This document shows, piece after piece, positions 6,399 through 27,357 of a DNA stretch of 33,917 nt. How positions within the stretch are numbered: position 1 is the first letter of the stretch; every line of letters begins with the position of its first letter. Location of the stretch: NCBI GenBank assembly GCA_031285765.1, contig JAITVO010000210.1:1-33917 (forward strand), written 5' to 3'. The DNA is from Cytophagaceae bacterium. GTDB lineage: Bacteria > Bacteroidota > Bacteroidia > Bacteroidales > Marinilabiliaceae. The notes under the pieces are model-generated. The model was not told the DNA's origin. It did no database searches and saw only the letters and a program-made list of their open reading frames with translations. Both the position numbers and the translations under genes were made by a program.

Positions 6399-6491
6399 AA
6401 AAAGCCAATAAGAAGTTATGCAATGTTTTTACGCTAATTTACATTAACTTATAGTAATTAGCAATAAAATTAGTGCAAATATAAACAAAGT

Positions 6492-7083
6492 GGTGGTGAT
6501 GTAAAAAGTATGCTGCTATAAATATTTGACAATTAGACAAAAATGGACTATTTTTGTATATGCAAATAAAAATTACCCTTCATTGTCCTAATTGCCAAAG
6601 TTCAAAAGTAAAGAAAAACGGTAATAAAATCAATAGTAAGCAAAATATATGTGTAAATCCTGTCATCGTCAATTCATTGGCGACCATGCGTTATTCTATA
6701 AGGGATGTCATTCAAGCATTATACGTCGAATATTGTTGATGCCGGTCAGGGGTATTGGTATCAGGGATGTTTCTATTATAGAAGGAATCAGCATCAGGAA
6801 AGTTTTGTCGGTGCTGGTCAAATCAACATACGTCATAAAACCGCAACAGACTCATTATGAATCATTGGAAGTTGATGAGTTTTAGACTTATGTAGAAAAG
6901 AAATACAATAAAGTATGGCTCACCTATGCATATGATCGTGAAAGTGGAGAAATAGTGGCATATGTTGGGGTAAGAGCAATTTGAAAACAGCAAGAGCCTT
7001 GCGGAAGAAACTTACAGAATTAGGTGTCACTTATAGAAAGATTTGTACGGATGATTGGCAAAGTTTTGTGACCACTTTCAAAG
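6492..7083 (+). pseudogene. IS1-family element remnant (disrupted transposase)
   Basis: Zinc-finger N-terminus MQIKITLHCPNCQSSKVKKNGNK, then KSCHRQFIGDHALFYKGC in another frame, SLEVDEF-stop-TYVEKKYNKVWLTYAYDRESGEIVAYV and KTARALRKKLTELGVTYRKICTDDWQSFVTTF in further frames; ends at the junction with IS630-type sequence. Left end resembles GGTGGTGATGTAAAAAGTATG. Confidence 0.85.
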
Positions 7084-7499
7084 AAGACAATCACGTTCTT
7101 CACACTCTGCCGGTCGGCTTCGATGGTCTTGCGTATCGTTTCCTCGTCGGCTTCCCTGCTTATAACAGGCTTGGCTCCCTGCCCCGGACGGTTCTCCAAT
7201 CCATTGATGCCGTCGGTTAGGAACCGGTTCACCCATTTGTGGATGGACTGTTGGCATAAATCCACTTTCAACGCTATTTGTGGTGAACTCAAGCCTTGTG
7301 ACTTCAAGAGAACGGCATGGCAGCGCTGGCGAAGGAAATGCGCCCGACCATACTTGTACCCATTCTCCAGAAGCCGTATCTGCTCCGCAGACAAATCTAT
7401 TGATTTGATCTTTCCCATACTTATATTTGATTTCAGTACGGGAATAACGCTTATGGAGACTGAAAATTATCATTTAAACTAATTTTGTTGAACTACTTA
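7084..7499 (-). pseudogene. IS630-family transposase remnant (N-terminal HTH part only)
   Basis: MGKIKSIDLSAEQIRLLENGYKYGRAHFLRQRCHAVLLKSQGLSSPQIALKVDLCQQSIHKWVNRFLTDGINGLENRPGQGAKPV is IS630-type HTH; no DDE part, truncated against IS1 sequence near 7084. Confidence 0.8.
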
Positions 7500-18256: not shown

Positions 18257-18270
18257 AAAATTGGATCAAT

Positions 18271-18396
18271 TATACTCAAACAGAATTGATTTGAGTATAA
18301 AAGCAACAAGGGGATTAATCCCCTTGTCAATAAATAAAACTGAACAGTTAAAACTCAAATTCTCTGTTATTTGCAAACCATTTTTGTTTGAGTATA
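18271..18396 (-). repeat. Intergenic palindromic element, family TATACTCAAACA, copy 1
   Basis: 126 bp bounded by TATACTCAAACAGAATTGATTTG and CATTTTTGTTTGAGTATA; central perfect 22-bp palindrome ACAAGGGGATTAATCCCCTTGT at 18306-18327; inverted relative to copies 2 and 3. Confidence 0.82.
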
Positions 18397-18477
18397 AGTA
18401 TATAATTGCTTCAACCATCAAAAAACGAAGCGCCAAAACAAAGTGTTTTAGCGCTTCGTTGCAATATCTGTTGTCTT

Positions 18478-20606: not shown

Positions 20607-20896
20607 TAACTCAACAGGAAATGAATTGCAAATAACAGGGGTTTTGTATCGTGTTTCAATTGCTGCCATGTACCGGCAATGGGGCATGCCCCATTGTTGC
20701 CTCTGTTCAGTTTTATTTATTGACGAGGCTGTCCAAAAAGAACGCAAATGACACAAAAAACGCAAATTTCTGCAAAAACAACAATAAGCATTTGCTTTTA
20801 ATGTGTTCATTTGTGATATTTGTGTCATTTGCGTTCAAAAAGACTTTTGGGACAGCCTCGTTGCTTTTATTCGCAAATCAATTCTGTTTGAGTATA
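20607..20896 (+). repeat. Intergenic palindromic element, family TATACTCAAACA, copy 2 (interrupted by a nested element)
   Basis: Shares ACTCAACAG(G/A)AAATGAA(T/A)TGCAAATAACAG(G/A)GG, CAATGGGGCATGCCCCATTGTTGC and TTATTCGCAAATCAATT(C/T)TGTTTGAGTATA with copy 3. Confidence 0.82.
20723..20861. mobile_element. Nested MITE-like hairpin element with ends ACGAGGCTGTCC
   Basis: Left arm ACGAGGCTGTCC-AAAAAG-AACGCAAATGACACAAA and reverse-complemented right arm ACGAGGCTGTCCCAAAAGTCTTTTTGAACGCAAATGACACAAA; no ORF. Confidence 0.75.
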
Positions 20897-20932
20897 ATAA
20901 AATAGTGGTTCAAGACCTGTACAGTACCTTTT

Positions 20933-21679
20933 TTATTCCTCATTCTTTTTCTTAGCATCAGCGTGTCCGCGACGCTGCGCAATGCTGTTGTTCAGCAGGT
21001 CAATGCGCTGGTTGAGGCGGCTGATAAAGTTGTCGTACATAGCTATGTCGGCGGCGTTTTCAGTGGCATGGGCTACAATGCACAGCGAGTCTATCAGTTC
21101 AACAAGGGTGCGGTATGCTTCGTCCACTTCCAGACGGACTTCTTTCAACACCAGCTTGGTACGTGTGTTTCCTTCGTCGGCGCGTTCTTCAAGAAGGGTT
21201 TCTACAATACTGTTACGACGTCCCAGTTCGATAATCCATTCACCCAGTTCAAGAGTTGCTACACAGGCGGCATGTTTTAAAGAGAGTTCCTGCAGAAGGT
21301 TGCGCACGGCTGCTATCTCGTCGATGTTCGATTTTTGCGTTACATCTCCGTAGGCATCCAGCACAATCTTCAGGCGTGTGGCTGCTTCACGTTTAAGCGG
21401 ATTGAAATGCGTCAGTCCCGAACGTATGGCATTTGCCAAGCTGCGGAATACATCGTCGCGGTCGCTGTCGGCTTTGTCGATATGAGCTGTGAGCGCACTT
21501 TTGATGATTTTCCGGTATGCTTCATCCTCCTGCGCGTGCAGGGCTGCAAGTACGTTAAACTGTTTTTCGATTCTCAACAGGGCAGCTCCCACGCCCCGTA
21601 TAAGCGTAATTACAAACTCGATGAACTGAAAATGTCCGTCGTTGCGTAGATTGTGTAAGGTAATCTTTTTAGCTTTCAT
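20933..21679 (-). CDS. DUF6261-like protein, function unknown
   Basis: Helical 248-aa protein opening with ITLHNLRNDGHFQFIEFV, resembling Bacteroidetes DUF6261 proteins; family call from memory. Confidence 0.65.
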   Translation of the reverse strand: MKAKKITLHNLRNDGHFQFIEFVITLIRGVGAALLRIEKQFNVLAALHAQEDEAYRKIIKSALTAHIDKADSDRDDVFRSLANAIRSGLTHFNPLKREAATRLKIVLDAYGDVTQKSNIDEIAAVRNLLQELSLKHAACVATLELGEWIIELGRRNSIVETLLEERADEGNTRTKLVLKEVRLEVDEAYRTLVELIDSLCIVAHATENAADIAMYDNFISRLNQRIDLLNNSIAQRRGHADAKKKNEE

Positions 21680-21806: not shown

Positions 21807-21822
21807 TCGGTATATGCTTTGT

Positions 21823-21949
21823 TATACTCAACAGAAAATGAAATGCAAATAACAGAGGTATTCTGTTGTGGCTCAACCGCCGTGCTGCACCAACAATGGG
21901 GCATGCCCCATTGTTGCTTTTATTCGCAAATCAATTTTGTTTGAGTATA
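21823..21949 (+). repeat. Intergenic palindromic element, family TATACTCAAACA, copy 3
   Basis: 127 bp bounded by TATACTCAACAGAAAATGAAATGCAAATAA and TTATTCGCAAATCAATTTTGTTTGAGTATA; perfect 26-bp palindrome CAACAATGGGGCATGCCCCATTGTTG at 21891-21916. Confidence 0.85.
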
Positions 21950-22074
21950 AGCATATCATCAAATTCAAGCGACAAATGTACAATATTTTTTATACAGTTC
22001 TTCTTGACTTGCGAAAAAAAATTTCAACAACTTTCCTGTCAACGTATAGCATGGGAGGAAAAAATCATTAACCA

Positions 22075-24240
22075 TTATTCCACAATCGTCATTTCATCAA
22101 GTAAATAGCCTGCGTTGGCATATTTATCAATAATAAACAGAGCATAACGGATGTCGATGGAGATGTTACGACTTTGGTCGGGATTAAACATTAAGTCGCT
22201 CATTACGCCTTCCCACGCACGGTCGAAGTTTACGCCAATCAGTTCGCCACGGGCGTTCAGTATGGGACTGCCCGAATTGCCGCCGGTTGTATGATTGGTT
22301 GCAGTAAAGGCTACAGGAATGGTTCCATTAAGCTCGTAACGTCCGTAATCTTTTGCAGCATGCAGTTGTTTCAGCCGTTCGGGAACATGGTAGTCGTAAA
22401 TATCGGGATTCTCTTTTTGCATAATTCCTTCAAGCGTTGTAAAATGCAGGAAGCGCACCGCATCGCCGGCTTCGTATCCGCGCACATCGCCGTAGGCAAC
22501 ACGCAGAGTAAAGTTGGCGTCGGGATAAAATGTCCGCTCGTTATCGAATTGCATCAACGCAGCCATATAAATACGGTTCAGACTGTCTAACCGGTTTTGC
22601 AGTTCGTTGTAGCGGGGAAGCACCTTTTGTTGATAAACATCGGTCAGCGACTTGTAAAGTTGGTAGGCAGGGTCGCTATTCAGTTTTTTAACGCTTCCGC
22701 TGTTAAATCCGTTCAAAAAAGCCAGCGTTGCCTGTTGCGATATAAAAAATGTTTTGGCATACACCTCGTCAATATATTTCGATATGTTTCCTTTGTATTT
22801 ATTGTTGATATTTTCGGTAATATCGGGAAAAAAAGCGGACGGAATGTTTTGATATAGCATTTCGAGCACAACTGTTGCGGTTTCTTTGTCCAATGGAAGA
22901 TGGAGATTTTTAAAGTGCATCTGTAACTGTGCTTCTGTCATTGCTTTTATTGTTGAAATGGTTTCGCTGTCGTGGTTGCTGTCGCCATAAAGCGCCAAAA
23001 GTCGCTCAAAGCGTCGCGAAATACAAATGGTTTCGAGTCCGAGTCCTCCAATGTATTCGTTCAGATAATCGCGCACCAGCCTGTATTGCGAATAATCGGC
23101 ATAAATATTTTCGTAATCCGATATGATGTTCCCGAACTTTGCTTTGCGGTCGTCGCTGCTGTTTACCCATTCGTCGAAACGCTTTTCGTAAGCCTGTTTT
23201 GTGCTCACAACATCCATTTTTGCCAAACCGCGGATTTCGCCTTTCCAACGTTTCCACGCATTTGCTATCGAAGCATTTTTTGAGGCGTACTGAATCCTTA
23301 CACCTCGGTCGGCAGCCATATAACGATTCATCACATTCAGCTTGGCAGTGCGTATATCAACCAATTTGGGATAAATAAAATTGGCGAGCATCTCGATATG
23401 GAACGATGGCGCATACTCCGAAGTGTTTCCCGGATAGCCGAACACCATTGTAAAGTCGCCCTCTTCAATGCCTTTCAACGAGATGGGAAAATGTGCCGCC
23501 GGACGATAGGGTACATTCTCTGCTGAATATTCGGCTGGCTCATTGTTCTTGTTGGCATAGATGCGAAACAGTGAGAAATCGCCGGTATGACGGGGCCACG
23601 TCCAGTTGTCCGAGTCGCCGCCAAACTTGCCGATAGACGAGGGCGGCGCGCCCACTAACCGCACGTCGCTAAAAACTTCGTTAACAAACAAAAAATATTG
23701 ATTGCCGTAATAAAACGACTCTACAAGCCCCGAATAGTGCGTTCCTTCAACGGCTTCTTCCATTATTTTTGCGATGTTTTTACTGATGGCGGCTTTACGT
23801 TCGTTCATATTCATATCATCGGTAACGCCGTTGAGTACGCGAATGGTAACATCTTCCATCCTTTTCAGGAAAGTAACCTTTAATCCCTGATTGGGAAGTT
23901 CTTCGTCGGCTGACATTGCCCAAAAACCGTCGGTCAGATAATCGTGTTCAACACTGCTGTGGCTTTGTATTTGTGGATAGCCGCAGTGATGATTGGTAAT
24001 AAGCAGTCCTTTGTCCGAAATCAGCTCGCCTGTACAGCCTCCGCCAAAAATCATTACAGCATCCTTCATGCTTGCCTTGTTAATACTGTAAATATCTTCC
24101 GCCGAAAGTTTAAATCCCTTCGCGTGCATTTCGTCAATATTATACTTCTCAATAAGGAGCGGCAACCACATTCCTTCGCCGGCATAAGCGCCCAGCCACA
24201 TAATAACTGCAACAGCAGTAAGTAAAATTTTACGATACAT
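22075..24240 (-). CDS. S46-family dipeptidyl-peptidase, DPP11-type
   Basis: S46 motifs LLITNHHCGYPQIQSHSSVEHDYLTDGFWA (His), TWPRHTGDFSLFRIY (Asp), HTTGGNSGSPILN (Ser); FDRAWEG puts Arg 18 residues after the Ser as in DPP11. Confidence 0.93.
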   Translation of the reverse strand: MYRKILLTAVAVIMWLGAYAGEGMWLPLLIEKYNIDEMHAKGFKLSAEDIYSINKASMKDAVMIFGGGCTGELISDKGLLITNHHCGYPQIQSHSSVEHDYLTDGFWAMSADEELPNQGLKVTFLKRMEDVTIRVLNGVTDDMNMNERKAAISKNIAKIMEEAVEGTHYSGLVESFYYGNQYFLFVNEVFSDVRLVGAPPSSIGKFGGDSDNWTWPRHTGDFSLFRIYANKNNEPAEYSAENVPYRPAAHFPISLKGIEEGDFTMVFGYPGNTSEYAPSFHIEMLANFIYPKLVDIRTAKLNVMNRYMAADRGVRIQYASKNASIANAWKRWKGEIRGLAKMDVVSTKQAYEKRFDEWVNSSDDRKAKFGNIISDYENIYADYSQYRLVRDYLNEYIGGLGLETICISRRFERLLALYGDSNHDSETISTIKAMTEAQLQMHFKNLHLPLDKETATVVLEMLYQNIPSAFFPDITENINNKYKGNISKYIDEVYAKTFFISQQATLAFLNGFNSGSVKKLNSDPAYQLYKSLTDVYQQKVLPRYNELQNRLDSLNRIYMAALMQFDNERTFYPDANFTLRVAYGDVRGYEAGDAVRFLHFTTLEGIMQKENPDIYDYHVPERLKQLHAAKDYGRYELNGTIPVAFTATNHTTGGNSGSPILNARGELIGVNFDRAWEGVMSDLMFNPDQSRNISIDIRYALFIIDKYANAGYLLDEMTIVE

Positions 24241-24535
24241 AATTGTTTTTTTTAATGTGCGCGAAAATAGATAAAATACGACAAACTACAATGAGATGGA
24301 AAAAATTAGACGTTTATAACTGTTCGCATCATAACTTTATGCGGCTATAAACTACAGTTTTGGATAAAATAAGCAACCATAGTGCGAAGTGATTTTGCTT
24401 AAATCATATTACGTAAGTATAATTTGGGCAAAAATAATTAACGTGAAATTGTTCCTGCAGAACTTTACTGTCTTATTCCGCTTTCAAACCGTTTTGCGGG
24501 CAGTACACAAAGCATCCGAGTCTGTAGCAAATGTG

Positions 24536-25105
24536 CTATACATATTCCTGCAATTTATTTTTAAAATCCTGTAAATCGTTCAAAGTAATTTTTTCTTTAA
24601 TAATGCGGTGAATTTGATATTTAATTTCGGTATCGGTTCGTTTAACTTCTTTTAAAAAGCCAAGTTCTTCCGCTCTTTTTATGCAGCTGTCCAAATCTTT
24701 TATCGACCTTACGATGTTGTTCCTTTCGGGAAAAAACAGTTCAACCTCTTCTTTGATTTCCGTGTGGGTAATGAATCGTTCAAGCGATTGAATTTCAGTC
24801 GGATTGCTGTCAAATTCCTCCAGTATTTGTCGCAGAACAACCAGTACGATAGATGTTTCAAAACCCACAGGGCGACGCGAAACCAAATTCAGCGTTAAAC
24901 CGTCTTCCAGTTCAAATTGCTTTACAAAGGCAAAACCTTCGTTTTTTTTCAGAATTAATTCCAGCCCAATTACGCTGATATAATCCTGTATCTCTTTTTG
25001 ATACGAAATAATATCGTTCCATACCGAATTATTGCGGTCAACTGTACCTTTCAGCAAACGAACAATCGCTTTGGAGTAAGGTTTTATGTTATTTTCTTCG
25101 CTCAT
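24536..25105 (-). CDS. jetB: Wadjet JetB-like (DUF4194 / MksE-like) protein
   Basis: AIVRLLKGTVDRNNSVWNDIISYQKEIQDYISVIGLELILKKNEGFAFVKQFE...LVSRRPVGFETSIVLVVLRQILEEFD is DUF4194-like; starts 4 nt inside the jetA stop (ATGA). Confidence 0.85.
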   Translation of the reverse strand: MSEENNIKPYSKAIVRLLKGTVDRNNSVWNDIISYQKEIQDYISVIGLELILKKNEGFAFVKQFELEDGLTLNLVSRRPVGFETSIVLVVLRQILEEFDSNPTEIQSLERFITHTEIKEEVELFFPERNNIVRSIKDLDSCIKRAEELGFLKEVKRTDTEIKYQIHRIIKEKITLNDLQDFKNKLQEYV

Positions 25106-26571
25106 TTTGTTAAAATTATTTCGGGTATTCGTATATATTTTTTATTTACGCTGTCGAACAGAATATATTGCGTTTTGTCGCTGTTCACAGTGTGTTTAAA
25201 TTCCTTCATCAAGCCGATGTAGCCAAACAGTTCGGGCAATCCTTTTGTTAAACCGCCTGTATTATCTACAATTTCGAAGATTGTTGCCTGCGATTTATCG
25301 CTCAAAATCTTTTTGATATGCGTTCGCAATTCTCTTTTATCAACAATATACGGATTAAACAGTTTTGTAAACTCTGTAAAATCAGCTATATCGGCATCCG
25401 ACATTTGAGGTTTATCGCGATAAATTACATCTTCCCACTGATCGTAAGTAGTCAGTTTTCGTTCAAAAGGCAAATTGATTCCAATCTCGTCGATTTCGAA
25501 CGAAATATTGGGTTTCGGCTTCAATTTTGTTTTGGTTCTGTTTGCTTCGAGCAACAATTTTTTTATTTCCTGAATAACGCCTTTAGTAACTTCGGTTCGC
25601 GAAAGTTCGGTTTCACGAATAATTCGGCTCAGTTTTTCCGCCATTTTATCGTTGGTTCTATACACTTTTTGTCCCGAATCAAACAAAAGACGTTTCATAT
25701 CTCTTAAAAAAGCATCGTTGGTATCAATGTCTTTTTCCTCGGTTGTTTGGTAGAGCGCTTGCGTCAAATGTTCCCACTCTTGTTGCAGTTCCGACGAAAG
25801 CAAAAACTCCCAGAAAGCGTAAAAACTTTTACCTTGCGGGCTCTCTTTCAACTGCTCTAACGCATCGAAAGTATATTGCAGAATGGAGCCTTTGTTCAGC
25901 GACACATCGGTTCGGCGCTGATAAATTTCCTTGATGATATTTTTAAAATTGTCGTCAACTTCTTTGAAATCCGACAGCAGTTCTTTGCCCAATTTGTTCA
26001 GATTGTTAAATCGCGGCACAATTTCATATTCTTCAAACACTTTTATGCCCTCGCCCATTTTCAGGCGCTGTATTTGCTGTTCAATTTCTAATTTTTTGTC
26101 TTCGAGCAGTTGCAGACGTTTTTCTTTGTCGTCGTTAGTAAATTCGACCAATTCTTCCAGCTGATTAAAAAGCGATTTGAATTTCGATTCTGCGCCAATA
26201 TAATCTTCTTTTTTAAGATTCGTTAGCCAGTCAATCGTTTTGCTCGAATGGATAGAAAGTTCATAGAAAATATCGCCCGTTTCGTTCTGAAAGTTAGTCA
26301 GAAAACCGCTGTCCGTCCACTTTTGAATGTAAATTCTCGCTTTTTTCTCAAAAGTATCGCCAAAGCGGATTTCACTGTTTTCATCGTCAATTTCAAAGCC
26401 CTTTTCTTCCAGATAATTCTCTAATTTATAGTGAATCGCGTCAGATGACACAGTTGCTTCCTGTGCAAAAACATCAACCAGAAACAGAATAATTAGTTCT
26501 CTGTTCTTGGTTTTCAGCAGTTCAACGCTTGGCGAACTGTTCAGTATGTCGGTTAATTTTGAGGTATTCAT
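25102..26571 (-). CDS. jetA: Wadjet JetA-like (DUF3375 / MksF-like) protein
   Basis: KKARIYIQKWTDSGFLTNF, AESKFKSLFNQLEELVEFTNDDKEKRLQLLEDKKLEIEQQIQRLKMGEG, GKELLSDFKEVDDNFKNIIKEIYQRR, ESPQGKSFYAFWEFLLSS are DUF3375-like; followed by jetB. Confidence 0.88.
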   Translation of the reverse strand: MNTSKLTDILNSSPSVELLKTKNRELIILFLVDVFAQEATVSSDAIHYKLENYLEEKGFEIDDENSEIRFGDTFEKKARIYIQKWTDSGFLTNFQNETGDIFYELSIHSSKTIDWLTNLKKEDYIGAESKFKSLFNQLEELVEFTNDDKEKRLQLLEDKKLEIEQQIQRLKMGEGIKVFEEYEIVPRFNNLNKLGKELLSDFKEVDDNFKNIIKEIYQRRTDVSLNKGSILQYTFDALEQLKESPQGKSFYAFWEFLLSSELQQEWEHLTQALYQTTEEKDIDTNDAFLRDMKRLLFDSGQKVYRTNDKMAEKLSRIIRETELSRTEVTKGVIQEIKKLLLEANRTKTKLKPKPNISFEIDEIGINLPFERKLTTYDQWEDVIYRDKPQMSDADIADFTEFTKLFNPYIVDKRELRTHIKKILSDKSQATIFEIVDNTGGLTKGLPELFGYIGLMKEFKHTVNSDKTQYILFDSVNKKYIRIPEIILTK

Positions 26572-27161: not shown

Positions 27162-27211
27162 TAAGTAATTCAATGAAATTATCATTTAAACTAATTTTGT
27201 TGAACTACTTA
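27162..27211. mobile_element. 50-bp near-palindromic IS630-type terminal remnant flanked by TA
   Basis: TAAGTAATTCAATGAAATTA...TAATTTTGTTGAACTACTTA; its right 34 bp match 7466-7499, the IS630 remnant end. Confidence 0.72.
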
Positions 27212-27357
27212 CTATCGATTTTTTTACCGTTTTTCTTTACTTTTGCACTTTAGCAATTAGGACAATGAAGGGTAATCTTTATTTGCATATACAAAAATAG
27301 TCCATTCTTATCTAATTGCCAATTATTTATAGCGACATACTTTTTAAAACACTATCG
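27212..27357 (-). pseudogene. IS1-family 5' end remnant
   Basis: Reverse complement reads AAAAAGTATGTCGCTATAAATAATTGGCAATTAGATAAGAATGGACTATTTTTGTATATGCAAATAAAGATTACCCTTCATTGTCCTAATTGC, nearly identical to about 6505-6600. Confidence 0.85.

Follow-up and report, generated by a model that had tools for sequence, protein, structure and literature searches.

An apparent split of a type I Wadjet operon at the jetB/jetC junction in a draft Cytophagaceae genome, with JetA, JetB and JetC likely assembling in trans

The stretch of DNA analysed here (the window, 33,917 nt) is the entire contig C290 of a draft genome of 3.36 Mb in 372 contigs, which is 89.6% complete. It carries two full-length minus-strand genes that overlap by 4 nt, exactly where the first-pass annotation had placed them (Table 1). 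The product of jetA matches Pfam DUF3375 (E = 2e-88, residues 11-485) and, over its full length, PADLOC JetA1 (E = 5e-196), while that of jetB matches Pfam DUF4194 (E = 3e-33) and MksE (E = 2.5e-9) as well as PADLOC JetB1 (E = 1e-60), so that the original naming of the two ORFs as DUF3375 JetA and DUF4194 JetB is borne out by Pfam and by the type I models of PADLOC. The two proteins are 74% and 78% identical, respectively, to JetA and JetB of Paludibacter sp. 221 (L011). A homology search of the whole window found no jetC or jetD beyond a short jetC 5' stub, in agreement with the earlier statement that the window has no ORF for either gene. The same annotation had described 295 non-coding bp between jetB and the S46 peptidase gene; the gap is there, but ∼32 nt of it is a jetC 5' remnant.

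Table 1. Positions of the jet genes, their remnants, neighbouring genes and repeats in the window and on other contigs (L024 is on contig C95, L085 on contig C166).
Feature	Position	Strand	Remarks
jetA (kleisin subunit, DUF3375)	window 25102-26571	minus	489 aa, intact; full-length Pfam and PADLOC matches
jetB (KITE subunit, DUF4194/MksE)	window 24536-25105	minus	189 aa, intact; Pfam and PADLOC matches
78-nt junction segment (jetB end and jetC start), breakpoint	window 24512-24589	minus	92% identical copy at C95 6871-6948
jetC 5' remnant	window 24484-24543	minus	start codon and ∼10 jetC-like codons, then unrelated codons and a stop
Peptidase S46 gene	window 22075-24240	minus	Pfam E = 1e-230; now next after jetB, outside the Wadjet system
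jetC (SMC ATPase)	C95 6917-10312		1131-aa ORF, intact
MITE-like repeat, ∼128 bp	window 18270-18397, 20864-20906, 21822-21959; L024 10322-10407
DUF6261 gene	window 20933-21679		between copies of the MITE-like repeat
Second dispersed repeat	window 6491-7100, 27208-27354; L085 13530-14161
sufB	L024 4501-6021
sufC-sufD	L085 8418-10539

The first-pass annotation had suggested a search of the complete genome for JetC, and such a search, with JetC of Paludibacter sp. 221 as the query, turned up one full-length protein, matched at 6917-10303 of contig C95 and encoded there by an intact gene; the motor reported as missing is absent at the locus but not from the genome. This JetC is 69% identical to the query, matches PADLOC JetC1 (E = 0) and the Pfam models AAA_29 and SbcC_Walker_B, and retains the ATPase-motif residues that are invariant in 12 relatives. 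JetA, JetB and JetC each order the relatives by distance identically (L011 < L012 < L118). Upstream of jetC on C95 are sufB and other unrelated genes, and an exact match to the Bacteroidetes promoter consensus, TTTG-N19-TANNTTTG, ends 126 nt before jetC (0.35 matches expected by chance over the whole contig); the matches before jetA are all weaker than the consensus.

The two contigs share a 78-nt segment at the breakpoint, made up of the end of jetB and the start of jetC, and the genome search gave no further comparable copy (a third match resembling the junction, on C354, covers 27 bp where a guanylate-kinase-like gene ends and was put down to chance). In the window copy jetB ends intact and the jetC frame soon enters unrelated sequence, its jetC-derived part being the ∼32 nt from 24543 down to 24512 on the minus strand (MYSTFATDSD vs MYSTFDTGSD on C95 and MYSLFTTSSD in L011). 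On C95 a decayed remnant of the jetB end, interrupted in frame by a TAA, precedes the intact jetC, and the overlap of the two genes is still discernible in the stubs. Six of the 78 sites differ between the copies, three in the jetB part and three in the jetC part. By comparison with L011, all three jetB-part differences are most simply placed on C95, where this piece has lost its coding role, and two of the three jetC-part differences on the window copy, whose jetC piece has likewise lost it.

The closest homologues (L011, L012 and L118) have contiguous jetABCD, and jetA, jetB, jetC and jetD lie together throughout the closest loci with full context (L011-L017, L019-L021 and L118), barring those cut by contig ends; the split is therefore derived. 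Because the overlap between the two junction copies is very short, one rearrangement event with duplication at the breakpoint would be a simpler origin than two full operon copies with complementary deletions. An inversion joining once-adjacent S46 and sufB regions is not supported, as these genes are not neighbours among the matches listed for 40 relatives, and no empty site for jetAB is definable, the ∼1.5-kb regions flanking S46 in the relatives having yielded neither cvfB nor spoT. We consider it likely, from the sequence of the two loci, that a type I Wadjet/Mks operon of jetA, jetB and jetC, which ancestrally also included jetD, broke at the jetB/jetC junction, leaving jetA-jetB with a jetC stub in the window and jetC with a jetB stub on C95, and that the separately encoded proteins assemble in trans. 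JetA (kleisin), JetB (KITE) and JetC (SMC ATPase) would then be made from separate transcripts and would join in the same DNA loop-extruding complex. Given JetD, this complex would cut small circular DNA; lacking it, it would be a condensin of the MksBEF type or a defence that no longer works.

Short repeats are abundant in this genome, and besides Wadjet at least the suf operon is split too. The MITE-like repeat of ∼128 bp, with terminal inverted repeats TTATACTCAAACA...TGTTTGAGTATAA in a consensus from 13 copies, has at least 40 scored copies, many of them at contig ends. Another dispersed repeat, shared by the window and C166 over 637 bp at 82% identity, has a further 145-nt copy in inverted orientation ahead of jetA, and the left end of C95 holds the start of an IS630-type transposase. 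The suf genes are divided between C95 (sufB) and C166 (sufC-sufD). Of 40 genomes with sufB, 35 have a SufD-like match no more than ∼3 kb from it on the same contig, and in a congener, G001, sufB likewise has no adjoining sufC or sufD; operon breakage may be general in the genus.

JetD gave no match in the 89.6% complete assembly with the JetD_C profile, the Paludibacter JetD protein or DUF3322; both Pfam models do detect JetD of L011, L012 and L122. A tblastn search for jetD in the sampled loci of this genome, including the flanks of 30 repeat copies, returned one match, judged to be due to chance (E = 0.34). The gene could nevertheless be present and unassembled or unbinned, in which case a complete four-part Wadjet, encoded in pieces, would still restrict plasmids. 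The nearest relatives of JetA-C all have jetD, the ∼128-bp repeat starts ∼10 nt after the jetC stop and C95 ends inside this high-copy element, and the shortest of 20 contigs sampled is 2750 bp, so that jetD, if it sat on a short contig bounded by two repeats, would probably be missing from the bin. Set against these points are the three negative searches and the loss from C95 of the overlapping jetD start codon that is present in L011 and L012. On balance we regard this form of the split operon as a serious contender, a little short of an even chance.

In the other form, jetD would be genuinely gone and JetABC would survive as a nuclease-free condensin resembling MksBEF. This form fits the same three negative searches, and a passage of a review (PMC10586767) proposes just such an origin of MksBEF condensins, from JetABCD minus its nuclease. 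DUF3322 also has no match in five other genomes of the order in which JetA and JetC co-occur (G010, G126, G147, G252 and G341), so JetABC lacking this type of JetD recurs there. An assembly gap, however, explains the absence of jetD equally well, and the JetABC described here comes from a JetD-bearing lineage, which leaves true loss possible but rather unlikely. With ∼90% completeness, a repeat at the end of C95 and no sampled contig shorter than 2.7 kb, a lost and an unassembled jetD look alike, and the loss proposed in the first-pass annotation may hold for jetD but is unproven. It is with considerable doubt that we put forward the fuller scenario of a JetD-lineage Wadjet that lost its nuclease, had its operon broken and kept JetABC under selection in trans, a defence machine turning into a housekeeping condensin.

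Whether or not jetD persists, the three intact genes appear to be maintained. Pairwise estimates of dN/dS, which include time before the split, are ∼0.06-0.10 for JetA and JetB against L011 and L012; for JetC the value is 0.09 against L012, synonymous sites being saturated in the L011 comparison. Since the break, roughly 6% of the stub sites have changed, a figure based on the six differences in 78 nt. Neutral change of 4% would be expected to introduce ∼10 stop codons into the 5.4 kb of jetA, jetB and jetC, which contain none (Poisson P ∼ 5e-5; P = 0.007 at 2%; base substitutions only). Divergence of the stubs, set beside 5.4 kb of coding sequence that has remained open, speaks for continuing selection on JetA, JetB and JetC, acting in trans. 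The earlier remark that intact frames speak against long decay was sound, and the stop-codon expectation makes it semi-quantitative. A dead system, with its operon broken, JetD lost and three intact genes that have simply not decayed so far, would account for the split and for the JetD missing from the assembly, and the dN branches are indeed slightly longer in this genome than in L011; the decay of the stubs, one of them with an in-frame stop, beside stop-free coding sequence makes it improbable. The split JetABC is probably still functional, and its nuclease status could go either way.

As C95 is a separate contig of the draft, we infer its membership of the same cell. If it were contamination, or if the assembly were chimeric at a junction, the split would not be real, and a draft in 372 contigs with an estimated contamination of 1.8%, together with the mobile or repeated DNA at both ends of C95, gives this concern some footing. 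The GC content, however, is 0.42 on both C95 and the window contig, two dispersed repeats are common to them at 90-94% identity, and the genome's only sufB sits on C95. Moreover, the six differences in 78 sites mean that neither junction copy is the assembler's copy of the other, and we find an artefact of this kind very unlikely. Lastly, the first-pass annotation had weighed loss, relocation and repurposing for the missing genes: relocation fits jetC, a duplicated junction piece being present in both places, and a repurposed JetA-JetB pair acting without any SMC motor, for which jetAB standing alone at the window locus might speak, deserves almost no credence, as the genome does encode an intact, matching JetC from the same lineage, and no other JetAB is without an adjacent jetC among the full-context loci.

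Descriptions of Wadjet place its four genes in one contiguous operon, and a defence finder that requires adjacency would call the system described here broken or absent. A split JetABC, if selectively maintained, would show that encoding the complex in trans is feasible; should JetD really be missing, the genome would offer a recent test case for the origin of MksBEF from JetABCD via nuclease loss. JetA scored above the Pfam cut-off in 15 of 395 genomes of the order, and we surveyed the spacing of jetA and jetC in these and in two genomes found earlier (G010 and G025). In 11 genomes of this set the two genes are near each other on a single contig; in the remainder, this genome aside, the loci run into contig ends or are fragmented or incomplete, making this genome the only one surveyed with both halves flanked by unrelated genes. 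The genomes with JetA and JetC and no DUF3322 (G147 and G126, loci L120 and L121, and also G252 and G341 among them) include several of one genus, and G126 has a small ORF of 159 aa in the jetA-jetB gap.

Among known systems, the closest is the type I Wadjet (JetABCD/MksBEFG) of Paludibacter sp. 221, to which all three proteins are 69-78% identical. Its jetA, jetB, jetC and jetD are contiguous and overlapping, whereas the contiguous operon of type I Wadjet is not found here, jetAB (C290) and jetC (C95) each lying among unrelated neighbours. The combination of a kleisin, a KITE and an SMC protein without a detectable MksG/JetD nuclease in the draft genome would be that of the MksBEF condensins, but here the genes are split and their sequences place them in the JetD-bearing Wadjet lineage. 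The JetA-JetC loci without DUF3322, such as those of G147 and G126, likewise have no detectable JetD N-terminal domain; they differ in that jetA and jetC are close on one contig and in a JetC only ∼30-38% identical to that of C95. The split JetABC is a familiar system in a new arrangement.
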